Assembly: GCA_025201365.1 (NCBI GenBank)
Contig: JAIXMF010000217.1
Location: forward strand, 1-23,151
Origin: Syncephalis plumigaleata
Taxonomy: Eukaryota > Zoopagomycota > Zoopagomycetes > Zoopagales > Piptocephalidaceae
Direction of reading: 5' to 3'
DNA length: 23,151 bases
Made by a program: the position numbers and the translations under genes. Shown here piece by piece: positions 524-16,266 of this stretch. The notes below the pieces were generated by a model. The model did no database searches. It was not told the DNA's origin and was given only the letters and a program-made list of their open reading frames with translations. Numbering within the stretch: position 1 is the first letter of the stretch; each line of letters starts with the position of its first letter.

Positions 524-2326
524 ATGTTTCGTCCTAAACCAAAGCCGGTACAGAAACCGCCTAGATTCCCTAAAACACTTGCTGAACTAGGATTTCAACT
601 GCTCGATGAGAATAAACCCCTGCGCACCATAGCTGGTGAGTGGACAAGTGCAAGGGAATACGTAAGGGATACGTATATTAACGCAGGCTGACTAGGGAAA
701 CCTTTCAAATTCAGAGTCAAACCCGATGACAAAGAATACAATGAGAGACATATGATAGCGGTGGCCAGTAAGTGTTCATGTATATATATATAGAGTTTGT
801 ATAGTCTAGCAAGTAGATATATAACCGTTGAATGATAGAGGCAGTCGGTAAAGAAGTGAAGCTACATTTACAAAGACACTATGGCTTTTGTCGAATTAAC
901 TTGCCATTGAACGTATCCGACGATGAGCCACACTCGTTCATTTATCATAGGTATTTTTTTATTGCGATGATCATCGAATATATACATCTGTATTAATATA
1001 CATGTATGTGTATATACATATAGCCAGGACTACATGTATAATACTGACAAATTATTGGTATTAGTACCGGAGCGACTCAATCGGTAATTTTTTGATTATT
1101 ATCATGTAATAATGTATTGTATTATATTCTAATAATATCAATATATACTAGGGTTGGACAATGGGATCGACGCTATCTATTTGACGTGAGCGTACGAGTA
1201 AGTGATTCGCGTTTGAATAATGTAATTAGATGATAACTGTACTATTGTTAGAATGGAGCAATGTTCAGTTATATCGAGCAGGCCACCAGTGAAGGCTATG
1301 CAGTATTAATCACGAATCCAAGCACGAACTACTGGCGTAATGGTCGTAGTCTGGTAAGTGTCGACTAAACTAAACTCAGACGGGATATTATCAAGTCTAA
1401 TCGATAATACTAGGCGTATCCACCCTATAATAAGGAGTATACAGAAATACCAGGTATGTCAACTTGACAGATGAATCTATTGGCTAATATTCGATCATTA
1501 GACAATGAAGATGGTCCGGAACATGTTAAAACGGTATTTCGCGATATTATCCCGTAAGCTAAATAATTACCATATATATATACATGCATGCAAATACTGA
1601 TTATCGATCAGATTGTCACCGGCCAAGACCATCAATATTGTCGCTGTAGGCTATGGTGGTCATTGTGTTACGGAGGCTTTAGGTGAATTCTGTAAGTAAC
1701 AATGCTAGACTCGTGCATTACAACGATATTGACTGGGTTGGAACAAGACGACGTATTCCAAGAGCGTGTTACATTTATCAACACATTAGATTCGCAACAT
1801 TCCTCGGATTCACTACCGACTAATAAATGTAAAATCTGGCTAAGAGAGGTTAGTCGATGATATCAACAATAATTGTGATACATCTAATATTGAGTACATT
1901 TAATTTCTTTGCTAGCACACGCTCAACTGGATCAATTCTAATAAACCACGATGCACTGAGGTTAAAGATGAACGGTTCGGTTGTTGCTGCTTGGCTATAG
2001 GTGAGCTAGTAGATTGTTATACGACGAGTACATAATAATAATTGTTATTATTATTATTATTAGGACCAAAGAAGAATAGCATCTATGACGATGAGCAACG
2101 CAAATTGGTATTCCAATCGTTTAACGGACAACTGCAAATACTAGAGGATGACGAGGACGATGTGGAGGTGGCGACCATTTACACCGATAATGAGCCGGTG
2201 CACGTAGATGACGCATTGATGGAAGCTGCAAACGAGGCATCATCCACCGCAACATTAACTGTCCTCGAGGATAATGAGCACTTGCCTACTACTGCCCCGG
2301 CAGAAGCTGGTGAGAATCAAGAGTAA
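524..2326 (+). CDS. Arb2 / FAM172-family protein (alpha/beta-hydrolase-like fold), 12 exons
   Basis: Proposed exons: 524-635, 696-767, 845-950 (or from 839), 1024-1083, 1152-1197, 1252-1353, 1414-1453, 1502-1553, 1612-1691, 1748-1848, 1916-2000, 2064-2326. They splice in frame to about 372 residues. Family landmarks follow in order: FPKTLAELGFQL near the N-terminus, GKPFKFRVKPDD, DDEPHSFIYHSQD, DKLLVLVPERLNRVGQW, EGYAVLITNP, PEHVKTVFRDII, KTINIVAVGYGGHCV, NTLDSQHSS and LNWINSNKP. These match the Arb2 domain as I remember it in human FAM172A. Fission-yeast Arb2 belongs to an Argonaute chaperone complex and FAM172A has been linked to Ago2 and splicing, so a nuclear small-RNA or RNA-processing role is plausible by family only. 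The nucleophile-elbow Ser of the family (HSYGG) is Gly here (VGYGG), and the C-terminal His region does not match. The tail after about residue 310 is acidic and low-complexity. Family assignment is strong; individual splice sites are less certain. Confidence 0.85.
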
Positions 2327-2610
2327 ATATAAGCTTCTTTTTTTTCTGTAAATAAGCCAAACTACCAGGAGAGCCAAATTAAAATAATTACTAGACCAAT
2401 GAAACGAACAATAAGTGTAGTAAACGTTTTATTTCATTTCATTAGCATTGATGCATATTGTAACAATTAGGATATACAAATATAATAACGTATAGATACA
2501 ATTATTGATTACAAGTAGGAAAGAAGCAAATTTATTACTATTGTTGTTGTTAATCCAACAATATTCATATGAACATGAGTTATCGTGAATATTTTGCGTT
2601 ATTTTTATCA
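2327..2610. other. 3' intergenic region between convergent genes
   Basis: This 284-bp AT-rich spacer lies between the stop codon of the plus-strand Arb2-family gene and that of the minus-strand LPMO gene. It should contain both transcripts' 3' ends. Candidate A-rich polyadenylation signals are GTAAATAAG near 2348 on the plus strand and AATAAAAC read on the minus strand around 2427-2434. Nothing else was recognised. Confidence 0.5.
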
Positions 2611-3834
2611 TTAATCGTACTCGGCCGATTTAGTGGCATTGGTCTTTTTGACATGATCACAGAGTATGGCATTGCCTGAAGGCACGCATTCTGTGCCGAG
2701 AGCACACTTCATGGTATGAAGATGACCACCCGCACCACATACGGTGAATTGACTCGAATCGACGCAGCGATACTCGCCTTCCTTGCAACTACCACCGGTG
2801 GAGGCTGGTGTTGTACCAGTTGGCGCTGGTGTCGCGGTTGACGATTCCTCGTTTTGTGGCGTGGTGGTGGTACTATTCGTTGTAGGGTAGCTCGAAGTTG
2901 GTGTGGGAGTGGTGGGCTCCTCTTTCGGTGGTGATGATGATGATGATGGCTCGGTATCCGGTGATGATACAGTTTCGGGCGATTTGGAGGGTGGATAACT
3001 CGATTTAGGTGGGGATACCGGGTCTGCATCAGGTGAAGGAGTAGGACTATCACCGCTGGGTGCTTGATCACTTGGTGATGGTGATGGTGCTGACACCGGG
3101 CTAGGAGGAGTGTTGGGTGTCGTTGTCGGATAGCTTGGCTTGAGTTCTGGTGCCGGTGCAGGTTGTGGCGTTGCGCTGTTGTTATCATCGCTGGCAGGAG
3201 TGGATGAGCCACTCGCTGTAACCGTGATATTCTGACGAGCTGCCAATAATTTGACGCCCACTTTATCGGTGCCAGAGCCCCATTCGGGAACGGTGGGTCC
3301 ACCCAAAATGTTGGCCACAAGCATCTTGGGACCGGTTACCTTGCCATCGGACACGCCTTCAATGGCGATATCCGCGCAGTTCATGTAGTATTCGCGAACA
3401 CCCGTCGCATTAATCCAACTCCAGGCGAAGATGGCATTCTTGCAACTTGGTGCGGTAGTGGGAATCTGCACACTATACGTGCTACTAGCAATGAGACAGT
3501 TGTTGAGCACGTCTTTAATGACGACAAATGTCTTGCCGCCATCGTAAGAAAGCGAGAACTGACAATGGCCACCGTTGTGTTTGGCCTCGCCCGTAAGTAC
3601 CACGTCGACGGATGAACCGGCCTTGTACGTGCCTACAATGGCTCCAGCTGGTTTTCCTTGGCAAATGGCATGGGTGGGACTCTTGAGGTTGTAGTCGGCA
3701 TGAGACTTGTCGGGACCGTACAAAGAGCCGCGTGGTGGTGGCTTCGACATCTCGATATGGGCACTGGCGGAGTGAGCTGCCAGCAGCGATAATAGGAGGA
3801 CAGCAGGAACGAAAGTACAGATAGAGCGAAACAT
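2611..3834 (-). CDS. Secreted AA11-type lytic polysaccharide monooxygenase with CBM19-like chitin-binding domain
   Basis: A single-exon gene of 407 residues. Residues 1-25 are a signal peptide (hydrophobic core, ending AHSASA). Cleavage there exposes His26 (HIEMSKPPPRG) as the N-terminal half of the copper histidine brace. The second brace His is probably His86 in AKHNGGHC, matching AVHGGGSC of characterised AA11 enzymes. The segment AWSWINATGVREYYMNCA (about 137-154) is the AA11 hallmark and supplies the likely axial Tyr150. LVANILGG follows, as in AA11 proteins. Residues about 205-346 form a Pro/Ser/Thr-rich, probably O-glycosylated linker. Residues about 349-393 contain six Cys in a CBM19-like pattern (CKEGEYRC ... 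FTVC ... CALGTEC ... LCD). AA11 enzymes oxidatively cleave chitin, so the product is probably an extracellular or wall-associated chitin-degrading or chitin-remodelling enzyme. The upstream minus-strand region contains repeated CAACAT units just before the ATG. Confidence 0.92.
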   Translation of the reverse strand: MFRSICTFVPAVLLLSLLAAHSASAHIEMSKPPPRGSLYGPDKSHADYNLKSPTHAICQGKPAGAIVGTYKAGSSVDVVLTGEAKHNGGHCQFSLSYDGGKTFVVIKDVLNNCLIASSTYSVQIPTTAPSCKNAIFAWSWINATGVREYYMNCADIAIEGVSDGKVTGPKMLVANILGGPTVPEWGSGTDKVGVKLLAARQNITVTASGSSTPASDDNNSATPQPAPAPELKPSYPTTTPNTPPSPVSAPSPSPSDQAPSGDSPTPSPDADPVSPPKSSYPPSKSPETVSSPDTEPSSSSSPPKEEPTTPTPTSSYPTTNSTTTTPQNEESSTATPAPTGTTPASTGGSCKEGEYRCVDSSQFTVCGAGGHLHTMKCALGTECVPSGNAILCDHVKKTNATKSAEYD

Positions 3835-5628
3835 GGTTGTTGATGTTGTTGATGTTGTTATTCCTTCTTCAAACGAGTATAAACAAATAAAAACAGTAAG
3901 TGACCGGCACTTAAGAGGAATAACACCGCTAAAGGAGAAACAAGGAGTAGGTGATAGTGGCTAGAAGCGCAAGTGGGAGAGAAAGTACAAACGATAGAGG
4001 TTTAACACAGAGAGAGGAGCGAGAGAGAGAGAGAGGAGAGTCAACGATCAACGTTGAATTGATAAGGTAATAGAGATAGACTTAGCGAACAAGTGAACAG
4101 ATGCTTAATCAAATGAGGAGATACCACGGGATAGGGACCCTTTTAAATTGTTTACTACTACTCCTCACTTGGCGGCCTGGCAAGAGCCTATGCACATGCA
4201 ATGTCGTTTCATAGACGTGTTACACTAGGCAGGCGTATAGCATGGCGCCGTCTATCATATGTCATGTATCAGAGTTACAGACGGGGTGCAGTCATTCGTG
4301 TGCCACAGCATATTGGCCAGCAACAATGTGACTGAGCAATTCAATGATGAGTTGCAATAATCACGCTCGAGTAGAAATGAGAACAAAGCAACAACATACT
4401 AGTTATTAGTGCGTGGTATGTGTGTGTGTGTGTGTGTACACAGCATAACTCATACCGGTATGTAAGTGTGCATTTACGCGTGAATTGAATGAATGAACGG
4501 ATGAACAAGCGTGTATCATCATTGTTGCTGTTCAAGTTGGAGACTCCTCTTCAATGTCATGAATGCTCACTAGTAGGATTCATTATGAATGGATGGTCTA
4601 ACACTATTATCCTTGACTACATCTCCCCCTTGTGATCTACAACAAGACTACTATGATTCAATTGTTAATGCTACAAGTATGCTCAATTATATTGTTCATT
4701 ATAACTCTAATGAAATATTCATATTCATATAACATATAATAGTCTATAGTATAGGTAGCAATATATATACATGATGTATCACTATTCTATCATCAAGCAT
4801 CATACAAAACGACCATTGCAACTTTATCACAGGGGAGAAATGCTAATAGAGGAAGGAGCATCACGGGAACAAGGATGAAGGAAGCTACCACTCATGAAGA
4901 GAGAGAGAGAGTGTGTGTGTGCTTCGTCCACATGAGTGTGCAAGCAAGCAAACAAACAACGCAGCTTGACTTGCATGTATATGATGTTGATGTATGGTGT
5001 GTATGCGCGACTTGCTTCAATAAAAAGTTCGGATGCAGTGGTAGCACAATGTCGTACGTGTCAACGCAGAATGTCGATTCGTTTCACGCTAGCAGTGAAT
5101 GTGCCAGCACTCGCTGTAAAAGGCCGATCAATCATCACTAGATACGCTTAGTGTATATTGCCAGATAATCATCTCGTATTACCTGATCCTTTCTTCTTGT
5201 AACGATTAGAGAATGTCAAACAAACACAAACAAAAGAATAAGAACGCCATTCGATCAGTGTCGTCTAAGGTTGTCACAACAAAGAAGTCGAAAGTAAACC
5301 AATCGTTCCACGGTAGTCCGGTTATTTTGTGCAGATGCATCTGCCGCGAACAGGTAAAGTCATGACACCGTGTACTTCCCTCCATCAACATGAAGATGCA
5401 TCCTTCATCAGCAGCTTTTAATGGCCATTTCGTGACAACGTTCAACGCAGTAATAAACGGGTTTATTTTCAGTTTTATTTATACAATCACTACATTAAAC
5501 TGCACGATAGTGATAAGCAAGTGTAAATGAACGGGCATCTCCACGAATAGAATGGATGTACGAATGAGAGACGAGAGTGGGGAAGACACACACACACACA
5601 TGCGCATTCACACACACAACGCGAGAAG
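3835..5628. repeat. Intergenic region with microsatellites; no gene recognised
   Basis: About 1.8 kb without a convincing gene. It contains the LPMO 5' region and simple repeats: (GA)n at about 4019-4034, (TG)n at about 4419-4437, a (GA)n/(GT)n tract at about 4897-4920, and (CA)n tracts at about 5586-5600 and 5609-5618. A 14-bp perfect palindrome, GCAGATGCATCTGC, sits at 5331-5344. Short open frames here (for example 4341-4535, 4875-5141 and 5206-5445) encode low-complexity or composition-biased peptides and show no domain. No tRNA or rRNA signature was seen. Confidence 0.55.
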
Positions 5629-7474: not shown

Positions 7475-7765
7475 CAAACAACGATAACAACGATAAAACA
7501 TAGATTGTGATCACTTTATTGAATAAATACAGGGTTTTTCCATCCAATTTGCGCATTTATCCTTTAACATTTGCTGTTTATTAATAAATAGATTAACACA
7601 ATTGTTAACATTATTATCATCATAGAAATGCTAATTGACACAGCATAATAATAATAACAATTCAGTATTCAGTAATGAATCCTATATTGATAACAATAAC
7701 TATCATCATCAATTCTATAAGGTAGATGATACAAGTGTACTAGTATAGTTGGATATTGCCATGTC

Positions 7766-8050
7766 ATGTACTTACAAGTAGCTATTGATTATCGTGTATG
7801 GAATCGGGATATGGCAGCATGTCTGAATTTTATTCAGATTATTCGCAGTCTTCGCAATGGAAAGGGTGTTCCAACACAATTCCATCGAGGTGCCGTTCCT
7901 TCTAAACGTTCAAAGAGAGGGGGACAAGGACAACGGGGGTCCAAACAACGAAAATCAACTCATCCGTGGCGTTATCGCTTCCACGCCAGTCTCCGTGCTG
8001 GGATTACTAAAATAATTGTAAGTGTTATCATAACTATTATTTATTCGTAA
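7766..8050 (+). pseudogene. Fanzor (eukaryotic TnpB-like nuclease) C-terminal fragment in copy A
   Basis: An open frame contains YRVWNRDMAACLNF (W at 7799, D at 7808-7810), the RuvC-III motif WNRDxxAxxN of Fanzor/TnpB-type nucleases, where the Asp is catalytic. It continues IQIIRSLRNGKGVPTQF, then a basic Gly/Arg-rich tail (KRSKRGGQGQRGSKQRKS) similar to tails I recall in Mucoromycota Fanzor proteins. The RuvC-I, RuvC-II and zinc-finger parts are absent, and the in-frame segment before the motif hits a TGA around 7722. It therefore cannot encode an active nuclease. The last 25 or so codons probably read through what was once non-coding sequence, because copy B stops earlier. Identity rests on one strong motif plus the partner motifs in B. 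Confidence 0.7.
7966..8001 (+). ncRNA. Candidate guide-RNA (fRNA/omegaRNA-like) scaffold hairpins, copy A
   Basis: Two adjacent inverted repeats lie between the Fanzor remnant and the right terminal repeat. The first (7966-7984) pairs GTGG with CCAC plus one G-C closing pair around a TTATCG loop. The second (7986-8001) pairs CCAG with CTGG around an 8-nt loop. Copy B has two hairpins in the same order and place. TnpB and Fanzor guide RNAs come from the 3' end of the nuclease gene and the element's right end, so the position fits. The stems are short and only two copies are available; this is a hypothesis. Confidence 0.3.
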
Positions 8051-8093
8051 AGACAAATGGCTAACTGCGCAAATTGGATGGAAATGGCCTGTA

Positions 8094-9089
8094 TAGCTGT
8101 TATTAAAAATAGAACTTGTTTCTTATATATCTTTTGTTTCATAATCAATTCTAATGATTACAACTTGCAAACAGGTATCTATTTGTACGTATACCATTTT
8201 GGAACAATACTCGGCTACATATGACCTTGTAGTCGTGCTGGTAAGAAGGTAAAAATTTGACCCGAATGCATTATAATGTCGCCTATATCGTCCAATGGCA
8301 TGGATGTATCTCTTATCAGCAGCTATTTATCCGTCCAAAACCCGTGCTATTATTAAATATAACACATCATCTGATGCGGTACTGATGCCATCTGAAACCA
8401 TGTATCCGTAGATATGGCTTACAAGTTATCGTTTACACTCCATGGAGCAGGTTTGAAAACATGATATCGTGTTCCCGTAAACTGAATGTCAAGGTAGAAA
8501 TAGATGATGATGATGATGATAGAGAAGGTGTGCGTGTTTTTCATTCACTATCTCTCTCTCTCTCTAGGTGTGTGTGTGTGTGTGCACTCGTCCCCTTTTG
8601 CATTAATGAAATCATACTCCTGATGTACACAACTCATGATCTACGAGGAGGCTTATTGTTACCACACCGTAAGGACTAATCCCGGCTGCTTAATTGTCAT
8701 TAGTAACCTGTGCACACTCATTGCCCGTTTAGGCATGTGATCCAATGAAGTAATGTGCGTGTGCAGTTAATAATAACAACAATATTAATAGCAATAATAA
8801 CAATAATAACAATGTTGTTGTTGCTGATGAATGCTGAATGATGGTAACATTTAAATAGACGACATGCAGCCTAAATAATTCATGCGCCGACAACCTTGAT
8901 TCATTCCGTTCGATTCATTTAACATTTACTTAACAGCCATATATGCAAATACCATTACCATAAATATATCGCATCGATTTTCATTACCTATATTCGTATT
9001 TACTTTTTATAGTAAGGACTACTATTTCATTTCATTTCATTTTTTAACTACGCACGCTATCCTGCACACTATTATCGACACGCATCGGT
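8094..9089. other. Intergenic region upstream of sulfate permease; no gene recognised
   Basis: About 1 kb with no supported gene. It contains (GAT)n near 8503-8520, a (CT)n/(GT)n tract at about 8550-8585, an AAT/AAC-rich stretch at about 8768-8820 ending in GTTGTTGTTGC, and a TTTCATTTCATTTCATT run just upstream of the permease start (about 9025-9042). A 72-codon open frame at 8461-8679 is composed mainly of repeat-derived Asp, Ser and Cys codons and is not credible. The promoter of the permease should lie in the last few hundred bases. Confidence 0.5.
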
Positions 9090-11933
9090 ATGATGTTCCA
9101 GCTCAAGCTATGGCAAGGAGGCGCTACAAGCAGCATAAAACGCTATGTCCAGCAACGACTGCCAATTGTCGGCTGGTTACCCTATTACCATCGAAGTTGG
9201 TTTACGCGGGATATTGTGGCGGGATTCACCATTGGCGTGATGATTGTACCGCAAAGCATCGCCTATGCACGTCTCGCCGGTCTACCCGTGGAATACGGGC
9301 TTTACAGCTCGATGGTGGCCGCGGCAGTCTACGCGTTATTCGGTACCGCGAAGGATATCAATGTAGGGCCTACCGCCGTGTTATCGCTCTATACCGGACA
9401 AGGTCTTCACCAAATCATTCGGGATCATGCCGAGTTGAACACACCCGCGCATATGGTCGCACTGGCCTCTATGATGGCCCTTCTCACAGGTGGTCTGGTA
9501 ACCTTGCTGGGATTATTGCGAATCGGTATTCTCCTTGACTTCATCTCGGCCCCGGTAGTCGTAGGATTCACGTTTGGGGCTGGGCTCGACATTATGCTCA
9601 CACAGATACCGAAACTATTGGGTGTAGCCGGTGTCAACACTAACGAGTCATTCTTCAATACTATCTACGAGTTGGCAAGACGGCTCAAATCCATATCGGT
9701 ACCGAATCTTGCCGTAGGTCTCAGTGCCACGATAATGATACTGTCGCTTAAAGCGATCAACGACCGATACGGTTCACGATATAGGATAGCGCGTATCGTG
9801 GGCATCGGTCGTATCGCCATTATAGTCGTGCTCTACACGCTAATATCCTTTTTAATCGCGGTGGCCGGTCATGGCGACAACGAGGAAACGGGTCAACGCC
9901 ATCCGTTGTACATTCTACGTCACGTACCACGCGGATTGCCCATGCCATCGATGCCATCGGCGCATGGTGTACCGGTACAACAACTGCTCGTTGCATCTAT
10001 ACTTCCATTCTTACAAACCATGATTGAACATATCACCATGGCTAAAGCGCTAGGTGAGTGGAAGGAATAGTAATGTAGTAACGACTACTAAAGTGATATA
10101 ACACATTTATTAGGTCGTATCAATGGTTACACGGTTAATTCTAGTCAAGAGATGGTGGCACTCGGCTTCTCCAACATGGCCACTTCGTTCTTTTCCGGAT
10201 TCGGTGTCACCGGTGCCATGTCTCGATCGATGATGGTGGCGCAGATGGGAGCTCGTACACCGTTGAATAGTATATTTCCAACATTCGTAGTATGCGGATC
10301 CTTGCTCTTCTTACCGCCTGCCTTCTACTATATTCCGGATTCATGTTTGGCGGCCATTATCACTACAAGTGTATTCGGGTTAATGCGTGGTCCGCGTACT
10401 TTTATTAAGCTTTGGCGAATCAATCGTAAGTAACAGTAGTAATAGTATTGTGTCATTGAGTAGACATACTAGTATTTACACTCGGCACTTGTTGTTTCCC
10501 CTATTAGCGGTCGATATGATTACATGTTTGGCGGCATTTATATTCACGGTGCTATTCAACATTGCCGTAAGTAGAGTGTAATCATCAATGCATCATACAA
10601 GTAATAGCTAGCTAATAAAAAACCCTCCTAATTACAGATCGGTATCGGTGTAGCCGTGGGTCTCTCGCTCGTACTTATGCTCTACAAGGTTGCTCGACCC
10701 GATTGCATCCTACTGGAGCCATGCGTCGACAATCCCGATGTCTACGTTGATCCATCGCTGCCTGATGTCGTCACCAAACCGCCACCACCTGGTATCATTA
10801 TATTCCGTGTTGAGGAGGCCATCATCTTTCCTAATGCGCATTACATTCGACATCGACTATTAAAGGCGGTGCATCAAACGTGCGCATCCGGTAAACCACC
10901 GGTGACACTTGAAGATGAAATGTGGTGTGACGTGGGAACAGCAGCAACAGCAGCAGCAGCTAAGAAACAAGATTTAATTACTAATAGTGCGTGTAATTGC
11001 AATAACAACAGTCATCATGATGACGATGACGACGATGGAAATGGTGCATCGAGCAGTAATCGATTTTCTAAATTACGACGTTTATTCCAACGTCGTCGCC
11101 GTCACCGTCGTGATCAGCGTTGTACTCATGAGAATAATAATGCAGAGATGGAATCGCAACCAACACATAAACGTACACCCAATACTACCATCGATCCGAG
11201 TCATTACACGCAACGTCGTAATTCATTAAGCATCGTATCCATAGAGATGGATAGCGTTGATCCTAATAAGATAAATGATGATTTGACACAAGCTAAAAAG
11301 GTAGAATCGAATCAACATGGTTCATTTGTCAGAGAGGACGAAGCCATGAGTTATATGGAAAATAATGGTAAAAATACCTGGACTGGTCGTTCAGAAACAC
11401 GACCTCTAATCAAGGCGGTTATCATGGATTTCAGCGCGGTCAACAATATCGACGCTAGTGGACTACAAGTGCTACTGGACTTGAAAACAACCATCAGCGA
11501 GTATGCCGGTAATCCTACCTCTTATCCATTCCAAATGCATTTTGTATCGGTGAAGAAACGGGTACTGCGCGTACTTGAACTTTCAGGCATTACCAATACT
11601 GTGCTACCAGTGCTAGAAGATGAGCGTGTAGAAGAGGTGTTCGAGCAGAACAAGTCCTCCACTAGTAATGATCAAGTGAAGCAGCAACATGCTAGTTTGA
11701 CAAGTGTCGAGGCACACACTGATCCAAACTTGAATCAAGCCATTTCCGATGAAGAACAAGAGCATAATCATGGTCCTATCACAGGCATCACTAATAATAT
11801 TCCAATTGCTCGACCCATAGTAACACAGGATCAACGTCTAGTGCATCTTAGCATTGCGGATGCAGTACGAGAAGTGTTGAGACGTCATGAATTGCACTTG
11901 AACAAAGAGCATGAAGTGTCGAATACTTGCTGA
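9090..11933 (+). CDS. SulP-family sulfate permease (SUL1/SUL2-like) with interrupted STAS domain, 4 exons
   Basis: Exons 9090-10053, 10114-10425, 10508-10566 and 10638-11933 give 876 residues. Two ATGs are adjacent at 9090 and 9093; either may be used. The start of the membrane domain carries the SulP signature: DIVAGFTIGVMIVPQSIAYA, GLPVEYGLYSS and GTAKDINVGPTAVLSLYTG (about residues 45-105). Roughly a dozen hydrophobic segments follow to about residue 465, including NSSQEMVALGFSN and the FF/SGFGVTGAMSRS region typical of the family. A C-terminal STAS domain begins at GIIIFRVEEAIIFPNAHYIR (about 497) and contains the signature MDFSAVNNIDASGLQVLLDL (about 709-728). Between these parts lies a low-complexity insert of about 170 residues with poly-Asp and an RRRRHRR cluster. 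The role is plasma-membrane uptake of sulfate coupled to protons, by homology. It is convergent with the AAAP gene, 285 bp between stops. Confidence 0.92.
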
Positions 11934-12218: not shown

Positions 12219-13647
12219 TTATAAAATACCGCCATCACTACCGTTGAAATCTTTGTGCAATGCCTTGATGGCATCAATGGCACCGAGTACACAGGCAAAC
12301 AAGCCAATGGCCACTATTAGGAAACACCACGCGAGTGTAATCTTTCTAACGGACCACCAGCCGAATAGACGCAAATAGCAGAATATAGGCAATACGAAAA
12401 CGATCATACAGTTGGCGAGCGCGCCTAATAGTGCCATAAAGTCGCCAAAGTATGGTACGACCATTGCTACCACGGTTAGTAGGCACACGGTGGTGGTACG
12501 AATGGCGGCACGATAAATAAACTCCTTGACCCGACCTAGACGAGCCACATTGACGCTGAAACGATTTTCTACATCGAGCGAGAACGAGGTAATGAGAATG
12601 GGCGCAGCCAGCAATACGTGGATCGTAATTAGAATGATCGCGCTGGTGGTGGCGGCACCTTTTGGTAGATTGTCGAAGATGGGCGATTTCGTCTCATGAC
12701 CGTAGGCCAAGTAGCCAGGCACGCAAATGACAAAGTAGATCAGACACGTGGTGAGAATGGCGGCACCTAATACGCGAGACCACGATTTTGGATGACGCAT
12801 CGTTGCCTCGACGTGTGGATACACGACATTACCACCGAATGAGAATGAAATCGAAGCGAGAGCAATGGCAAGTTGCGATGGATTGACGAACGAATGCTCC
12901 TTGGCTACATGATTGGGTTGCGATAATTCGATACCGGACAATGTGGCGGATACGATCACTACTACGATAGTGGCAATGGTACCGAAAGCCGATAGGATAG
13001 CCGCTTCCTTTAGTGTTTTCACGGCAATCACTGGTAGTAGTACGACGGCACCGGCTACGGCAATCCAGGCACGTTCACTCAGGGGACTACCGGCACTGGA
13101 TGCAGCGAGTAATTTATAGGTGTTCGATCCCACCAACATGATATAGATACAGCCTACTCCCAATAAGATAGCGTAGTTGAAGAACATTACAATCCATCTG
13201 CCTGGACGACCGAACGCCGCCTCACCAACATCGCCGTAGCCTGTGAGACGACGACCAGGGAACACGTAGAGACAGCGAATCAATAGATTACCGGTGTAGA
13301 TGGCCATTAATGCCGATAGGGCAATGAGAATGAGACCGATCCAACCGCCTTGATGCAAGGCGAGCGGCAGTTGTAGCGTGCCAGTACCGGCGATAACGCA
13401 AATAATGTTAAAATACGCGCCAATACTGGAGCTAGTGCGTTCATGTCCATGTTGTCCGTTGGCATCGCTGGCCTCTAGTGCTTCATCGTAGTCCTTGACG
13501 GACATTTTATCAAATGTACTATGGGCTTTTTCATTGTTTAAATCGTAGGATGCCCTATAGCTCGGCGGTGACTCTACAGCAGGTATTAGAGAGATGGCCG
13601 TAGATGGATATGAAGTAACCTGGCTGGTGTAACAACTTACGTGTCAT
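12219..13647 (-). CDS. AAAP-family amino-acid transporter (Avt-like), start in a 7-nt first coding exon
   Basis: The main frame from an internal ATG at 13505 gives 428 residues with about eleven hydrophobic segments. The conserved AAAP opening is SSSIGAYFNIICVIAGTGTLQLP, then GGWIGLILIALSAL, TGYGDVGEAAFG, a SFSFGGNVVYPHVEATMRHP block and a C-terminal FVLPIFCYLRLFGWW. AAAP proteins (yeast AVTs, SLC32/36/38) move neutral amino acids with protons, often across the vacuolar membrane. The frame stays open upstream of 13505 (SPPSYRASYDLNNEKAHSTFDK). A consensus 67-nt intron, GTAAGT ... CTGTAG at 13574-13640, joins it to ATGACAC at 13641-13647. I therefore propose exons 13641-13647 and 12219-13573, 453 residues, beginning MTQSPPSYRASYDL. 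The alternative is initiation at 13505 with an untranslated upstream exon. Family call firm, start moderately supported. Confidence 0.88.
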
Positions 13648-15201: not shown

Positions 15202-15300
15202 TACAGGCTTTTTCCATCCAATTTGCGCAGTTAGCCTTTTGTCTTTATGAATAAATAATATTTAACACTTACAAGTACAAGTACCCCCGTATTCTGTTTC

Positions 15301-15684: not shown

Positions 15685-16266
15685 AGTGTGGGAGCTATGG
15701 TTGCTCGATTTGCTCAAGCACAATGTGTACGCGATATACAATAAGGTAGTGTGAGTAGAGTGTAATAGGGACGATTGAACTGGAAGATGAAGATAAGTTT
15801 ATTCAATTCGTACAAAATAGGACCCATATTTATAGTGGAATAATGTATATAGGTGTGAAGATATTTACATAGCGGCTGATAACAACTCACTCAGACTCGA
15901 TAGTCTGAGCTGTCATCAGTTCACATTTCATTAACATCGCTGTATGTACTTATCAGTATGTTCCCGCGACCCGGATAACGGTTTATTTCAACGAGCCGAA
16001 AAGCTCTCATGTAAAATGAGAAGACAACAAGATTCACGCTTTTACTTTCACATCGAATAAATCCCACTTTCTCTCTCTATCCTAGTGTATAATCTTTTTA
16101 TTGTAATCATTATTATAATTGTAACAGTGTTATGGACTACGTTTTAGATTTCCCTTAATCCCATTTCACAACTATTATATTAATGTTAATAATTGTGTTA
16201 ATCTATTTATTAATAAACTGCAAATGTTAAAGGATAAATGCGCAAATTGGATGGAAAAACACTGTA

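Follow-up and report, generated by a model that had tools for sequence, protein, structure and literature searches.

A probable miniature derivative of a Fanzor1-carrying, transposase-less Tc1/mariner-type transposon in Syncephalis plumigaleata

The stretch of DNA analysed here, referred to as the window, comprises 23,151 nucleotides of Syncephalis plumigaleata and corresponds to contig C132 of the assembly. Its host genes are an LPMO_10-like gene (2611-3834, a match below the cut-off), a sulfate permease (9090-10070) and an amino acid transporter (12219-13505). The window also holds two short elements, Copy A and Copy B. Copy A spans exactly 7530-8091 on the plus strand (562 bp) and belongs to class II of the size classes described below, the members of which measure 517-656 bp. 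The features of both copies are as follows.

7528-7529, left TA target-site duplication, with AA upstream (AATA)
7530-7555, plus strand, left 26-bp terminal inverted repeat (TIR), CAGGGTTTTTCCATCCAATTTGCGCA
7530-7781, plus strand, left-end module common to the full-length elements, 92.9% identical to the full-length copy L021
7766-8050, plus strand, 94-aa open reading frame (ORF); the left end gives the start codon and continues in frame into the last Fanzor exon
7791-8091, plus strand, right-end module common to the full-length elements, 83% identical to L021
7799-7810, plus strand, WNRD, the RuvC-III motif with the third catalytic Asp of Fanzor1, placed by the ORF, PDB matches and alignment
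7963-7987, plus strand, hairpin with the loop UAUC at the position of the Fanzor stop, a putative omegaRNA scaffold whose arms stay complementary across copies
8066-8091, minus strand, right 26-bp TIR
8092-8093, right TA target-site duplication
8092-8112, plus strand, right flank, which would serve as guide if an omegaRNA extended past the right end, as it does in other Fanzors (by analogy with the consulted parts of PMC10432273 and PMC10711439)
15204-16264, minus strand, Copy B, a class III element of 1,061 bp, with TA at 15202-15203 and 16265-16266

The left 26-bp end of Copy A and the reverse complement of its right end differ at 3 of 26 positions, and beyond the TIRs a weaker inverted repeat reaches 73 nt at 71%. 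The right-end module contains the RuvC-III codons, a 3' untranslated part and the right TIR. Within the 94-aa ORF, positions 7796-7828 encode VWNRDMAACLN. The two best PDB matches of a 72-aa peptide from Copy A both fall on the extreme C-terminus of Fanzor1, and they are weak when taken alone (E 0.009 and 0.015). In Copy B the TIRs are mismatched at 2 of 26 positions and the Fanzor 3' end has diverged.

A second contig, C329, represents an allele without Copy A, the flanks of which are 97-98% identical on both sides. Its empty site reads ATAAATA/TAACAG (sequence ...TGAATAAATA followed by TAACAGTTATT) and carries one TA, so that the TA duplication can be seen directly. Hence, the insertion of Copy A is polymorphic between haplotypes. 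The C329 site differs from the filled right flank by two substitutions and a one-base indel; as these adjoin the site, a repaired excision at C329 is possible. Both alleles carry Copy B at the identical site (99.8% over 2,300 bp). The assembly thus seems, from these alignments, to hold two haplotypes here, the window contig being the alternative haplotype of C329.

With up to 2 mismatches permitted, the window contains the terminal core CCATCCAATTTGCGCA 4 times, against 0.03 expected from shuffles. The assembly of 32,639,069 bases (32.6 Mb) contains it 374 times in forward and 372 times in reverse orientation, and the reversed core pattern used as control gave 0+0 occurrences there. Sorting by the spacing of the ends places 151 distinct paired copies in four size classes, namely class I (<300 bp, 57 copies), class II (500-700 bp, 73), class III (1.0-1.2 kb, 9) and class IV (~4-5 kb, 12). 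TA together with a CAG-like end is present on both sides of 132 of the 151, and the flank counts given below omit the other 19. Copies of class II and class IV were chosen mostly by peptide search and at seven loci by DNA; those of class III and most early class I copies were taken among the first 100 hits of the core pattern search, the rest of class I from DNA searches. Copies sharing equal left flanks were counted once. Left out were L001, L009, L012 and L033, which repeat the window locus or another sampled locus, and L034, the empty allele.

Class II copies consist of a left end of ~257 bp (1-257 in the numbering of the L021 element) joined to a right end of ~280 bp (3872-4151). All 73 can be matched to the left end of the full-length elements for 200 nt or more, and to a full-length right end as well. 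They are short, present in many copies, bear the ends of a longer element and lack a functional transposase, as is characteristic of MITEs. Class I copies are ~225-240 bp long, and those that were mapped (L016, L129-L134) have a left end of ~92 or 182 bp and a right end of ~64 bp. The mapped class III copies have a left end of ~75-100 bp, followed by a stretch of their own and then a diverged 3' part. One class II copy, L015, is split by a nested retroelement and was counted with class IV in the class, flank, hairpin and right-end comparisons; the retroelement, recognised by eye at 529-4017 of that locus, carries a reverse-transcriptase-like frame of 1,163 aa.

Fanzors are eukaryotic relatives of the CRISPR nuclease Cas12. 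The full-length relatives of Copy A measure 4-5 kb and possess a single gene of two exons. Exon 1 encodes 617-688 aa in the 12 longest of 14 copies, the intron is of the GT-AG type with 60-61 nt, and the last exon supplies the second half of the C4 finger and WNRD. The spliced proteins are 711-795 aa long in 9 of 11 copies, the other two (L018 and L030) being without the 5' part in that frame. With phmmer, the spliced L021 protein matched the Fanzor1 of Parasitella (PpFz1) at 1.1e-107, that of Spizellomyces (SpuFz1) at 3.4e-36 and that of Guillardia at 0.067. The preliminary description had taken WNRD in Copy A for a Fanzor remnant, and these matches of the full-length relatives bear it out; a coincidental motif in an unrelated protein is not the case, as the full-length copies encode Fanzor1 with its catalytic motifs. 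The full-length parents that had been predicted are also present, with 28 loci holding an apparently intact, stop-free open frame of at least 600 aa (counted manually from an exon-1 scan in which 65 candidates were scored).

By a manual count on the alignment (chain offset 394), residues D383, E541 and D606 of SpuFz1, the catalytic residues as numbered in the consulted part of PMC10432273, align to VDPG, LIDE and WNRD. The RuvC triad is kept in nearly all full-length or 5'-broken copies, with the first D in 14/14, the repositioned E in 13/14 and the last D in 14/14. For all 66 pairs of 12 exon-1 ORFs, dN/dS lies between 0.32 and 0.52. The Fanzor1 signature, as given in the consulted part of PMC3627910, is [TS][TS]xx, a C4 zinc finger and RD after 5-50 residues. 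TSKCCPxC...CxxxxC and WNRD are present here, and the distance between finger and RD falls within 5-50 residues in proteins of the L013 type and exceeds 50 in those of the L021 type. No Pfam model exceeded its cut-off on the full-length Fanzor (PF07282, 13.0 bits against a cut-off of 26.3), and a scan of the whole genome with PF07282 gave 0 matches, so that Pfam and this model are too insensitive for this Fanzor. A 234-aa tblastn query found nothing in the phage records. In L013, a Fanzor with an otherwise open frame, the repositioned catalytic Glu is replaced by Lys.

The full-length copies that were read contain no ORF of at least 150 aa besides Fanzor, except for a nested Tc1 in L018; the ~1.7 kb upstream of the Fanzor start (L021) is likewise without a 150-aa ORF in these copies. 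Since no DDE transposase was seen inside the copies read, the Fanzor elements are non-autonomous. The transposase of L018 was considered as the element's own and rejected, as it is nested in the Fanzor exon and has different ends. This nested Tc1 (2724-4370 of L018; C1 ~572,000-573,700) has TACAGTGAGGGAAAG ends and a 380-aa transposase, and a transposase frame of 376-380 aa with the same score is found at five places.

A genome scan for DDE_3 gave 26 candidates with 31 matches belonging to several Tc1-like families, of which one member each of three families was examined, plus a fourth in L018. One of these is a candidate helper, with a frame of 383 aa that matches DDE_3 at 1.5e-28, two HTH models above their cut-offs and, distantly, Sleeping Beauty in the PDB (2e-4). 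It is carried by an element present in five copies (C39, C90, C116, C344 and C362), each 4,525 bp including both TAs. The end of this element aligns to the Fanzor left end over 47 bp with a score of 39 (5,000 mononucleotide shuffles gave at most 28) and to the Fanzor right end with a score of 32 (shuffle maximum 28). The L018 Tc1 end scored 14 and 15 against the Fanzor ends and is the only end control counted, a candidate end from L196 (34 nt; scores 12 and 12) having been set aside. The exon-1 scan found no Fanzor match in the five helper elements, including a stretch of ~1.0 kb that was left unread. As judged from sequence, a separate Tc1-like DDE element with homologous ends is the likely helper acting in trans. 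Because the ends are homologous, the simplest reading is a two-part system, in which Fanzor-only elements and miniatures borrow a Tc1-like helper. With this transposase between homologous ends elsewhere in the genome, and with the TA duplication seen at the empty allele, the Tc1/mariner-like nature first proposed for the ends of Copy A holds. The helper copies, among them loci L195, L198 and L199, are identical over the 300 bp compared, have a repeat-like tract before the transposase and look recently active. Four shorter forms of ~2.6 kb share the ends of the 4.5-kb helper element.

In full-length copies a hairpin begins no more than a few bases from the Fanzor stop codon and overlaps it in some subfamilies. 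Its arms vary widely (GUGG.../...CCAC, GAUAG/CUAUC, GUGAUGG/CUAUCAC, GCGAUGG/CUAUCGC, GGUUG/CAACC) but mostly remain complementary around UAUC or UAUA despite the differences in sequence. The loop motif is found in 89 of 90 copies of classes II-IV. For 29 distinct hairpins, the mean minimum free energy is -6.72 with their own arms against -5.28 (sd 0.34) when the 3' arms are re-dealt among copies, a control in which the kinship of the copies remains; 0 of 500 re-dealings reach the observed value. The signal is weaker for the 14 hairpins found in class II and in no other class, where 12 of 500 re-dealings reach the observed value, and three of the 29 are weak in themselves (-1.4 to -3.1). A second, longer hairpin lies further downstream in many variants and is absent in some. 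Published omegaRNAs overlap or follow the Fanzor stop (PMC10432273, in the part consulted). The hairpin appears to be kept by compensatory changes at the position expected of an omegaRNA, and it looks like a part of a putative guide RNA. For the terminal GGCU/AGCC helix closing with the TIR, no covariation was found (3.68 of 4 pairs in own arms, 3.69 re-dealt). Three features of the family had not been foreseen in the preliminary description, which are the lack of a transposase of its own in the elements read, the three short classes and the conserved RNA hairpin in Copy A.

Among class II copies, mean identity is 91.9% for left ends and 82.0% for right ends, and the left- and right-end identities of pairs are unrelated (Spearman -0.04; 2,540 of 2,628 pairs). 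The 73 right ends of class II find 13 different best partners among the 14 right ends of class IV (L015 included), with a median identity of 92.5% to the best partner and at least 95% in 22 of 73. Several hairpin types are common to class II and the full-length class. In the class II copy of L023, two WNRD blocks enclose a piece of the full-length linker, as would be expected of a recombinant. Because the identities of the two ends are unrelated, the partners many and the hairpin types shared, and given the structure of L023, right ends seem to have been exchanged between miniature and full-length copies.

Such exchange bears upon the reading frame of the class II copies. In 61 of 73 copies the fused ORF runs without a stop from the ATG site up to codon 38 beyond W; this count may include frameshifted copies, and 3 of its copies are without the ATG. 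The start region is thus broken in part of the copies, with a stop directly after M or MY in 9 of 73 and loss of the ATG in these 3 of 73. Exchange of right ends would explain why the Fanzor codons are open in 61 of 73 copies despite broken left-end codons in 12 of 73. Among class II copies chosen by DNA, for which 29 of the 35 listed were usable, the 38 Fanzor codons are open in 27.

A strictly symmetric integration would leave no difference between the left and right flanks. Before the left TA, A stands at -4 in 82 of 132 copies and A or C at -3 in 105 of 132, and the corresponding positions of the right flank give 47 and 69 of 132. The chi-square test of left against right flank gives p 3e-7 at -4 and 4e-7 at -3, and the difference is weaker at -6 and -7 (p 0.003 and 0.009). 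The ATA-rich left flank fits the target-adjacent motif (TAM) ATN of PpFz1 (PMC11423790, consulted in part), and the left flank A-A/C-T-A may be compared with the TAM CATA of SpuFz1 (PMC10432273). The bias as an imprint of Fanzor is nevertheless unsupported, as class I copies, which are without most of the RNA part, show it equally. For class I against the rest, A at -3 is found in 29/51 and 50/81 (Fisher 0.59), A or C at -3 in 39/51 and 66/81 (p 0.51), and both positions in 20/51 and 43/81 (p 0.15). Being equally strong in class I, the bias is no proof of Fanzor action; rather, a preference of the transposase with unequal ends explains it.

Taken together, we place the probability at roughly 0.75 that Copy A is a miniature derivative of a Fanzor1-carrying, transposase-less Tc1/mariner-type transposon, moved in trans and associated with omegaRNA and homing steps as follows. 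An internal deletion of a full-length Fanzor1 element would have joined the left end to the right end and given a miniature of the Copy A type. The Tc1-like transposase would cut and paste Fanzor elements and miniatures in trans. The 3' end of full-length and class II copies would be transcribed into an omegaRNA, with the right flank as guide. The Fanzor loaded with it may then cut at the TA-containing site, either in the emptied donor or in the empty allele, whereupon repair templated by a filled copy would restore or spread the element.

A nearly even chance, slightly on the lower side, is given to Copy A being an ordinary dead MITE, with the Fanzor 3' end merely carried along since the founding deletion and both RNA and peptide inert. 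Class I has spread with only ~64 bp of the right end, and a longer right end is therefore unneeded for movement; the equal left-flank bias of class I and the broken start regions in part of class II point the same way. However, most class II copies keep the hairpin paired although their arms differ, and nearly all DNA-chosen copies keep the 38 Fanzor codons open. Both properties may in turn have come from full-length copies through exchange.

A more far-reaching proposal, which we regard as doubtful, is that class II (and perhaps class III) constitutes a dispersed library of guide RNAs read in trans by a few dozen full-length Fanzors, every miniature retaining a functional omegaRNA scaffold and using the flank on its right as guide. 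Hundreds of insertions would then each be protected and spread by RNA-guided homing, and the exchange of right ends would keep scaffold and protein matched. Classes that keep the putative guide-RNA part and classes that lack it are natural controls for each other, and the homing idea is directly testable in this genome, where apparently intact Fanzor genes, a likely helper, hundreds of short copies and one empty allele occur together. What Copy A belongs to is more interesting than Copy A itself. To our knowledge, the natural role of Fanzors is still open.

It is improbable that class II copies are under selection for the fused peptide of 65-67 aa (MYLQVAI.YRVWNRD...) as a product in its own right, such as a dominant-negative or regulatory Fanzor fragment. 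The openness of the frame in most copies and a pN/pS of 0.28-0.35 would agree with selection. Yet the losses cluster in codons derived from the left end, which a selected peptide would need, and at least one open copy, L005, is frameshifted inside the Fanzor codons. Most class II copies were found by peptide search, which biases the sample to conserved peptides, and exchange with full-length copies explains the conservation equally well. As the three frames of a non-coding left-end control gave 0.41, 0.53 and 0.99, a pN/pS of 0.30 is a weak signal, and the claim of selection on the peptide was dropped.

A different superfamily, for instance MuDR, is hardly credible for these elements. The Fanzor1 elements of Rhizopus, Phycomyces and Mucor do possess TIRs of MuDR-like type and duplications of 9 bp (PMC3627910, section 12), but only TA is duplicated here and the ends match those of an element with a Tc1-like transposase.

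Fanzor1-only Mariner elements are already known. For example, PUl-4 shares with the present family Fanzor1, TA duplications, Mariner-type TIRs and the lack of a transposase (Bao and Jurka, 2013; PMC3627910, in the part consulted). Compared with that description of PUl-4, the present family comprises several hundred copies, three miniature classes that keep unequal 3' lengths, a two-exon Fanzor and a separate likely helper with homologous ends. The copy number, the likely helper, the RNA part in miniatures and the apparent right-end exchange make the present family a variant of its own. Similarly, the Fanzor1 transposon of the ascovirus SfAV is a non-autonomous TIR element that encodes Fanzor1 only, and its guide RNA runs past the target-site duplication (PMC10711439, consulted in part). 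It differs in having two copies and a TTAN duplication (PMC3627910), whereas TA is duplicated here. The TIR of SfAV has been predicted within the fold of that Fanzor1 RNA (PMC10711439), and covariation for such a fold is absent in the present family. In searches of open-access literature, outside of which most subscription papers lie, no account was found of Fanzor-derived MITEs as guide sources, and no Tc1-borne Fanzor was found reported in a fungus.

Among solved structures, SpuFz1 of Spizellomyces punctatus (8gkh) belongs to the same family and shares the catalytic D, E and D, but is distant (3e-36). The closest solved relative by sequence is PpFz1 of Parasitella parasitica (9cf0), to which most of the protein can be aligned, including the RuvC blocks and WNRD. 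In PpFz1, ~113 residues between the RuvC blocks (chain 983-1096), probably the FRI insertion, have no counterpart here. Conversely, the linker between zinc finger and WNRD is long here and acidic in proteins of the L021 type, whereas PpFz1 has only a few residues there. In the spliced L021 protein this linker between the zinc finger and RuvC-III (~641-703) is acidic and lysine-rich with a repeat-like character, and its length differs among copies.
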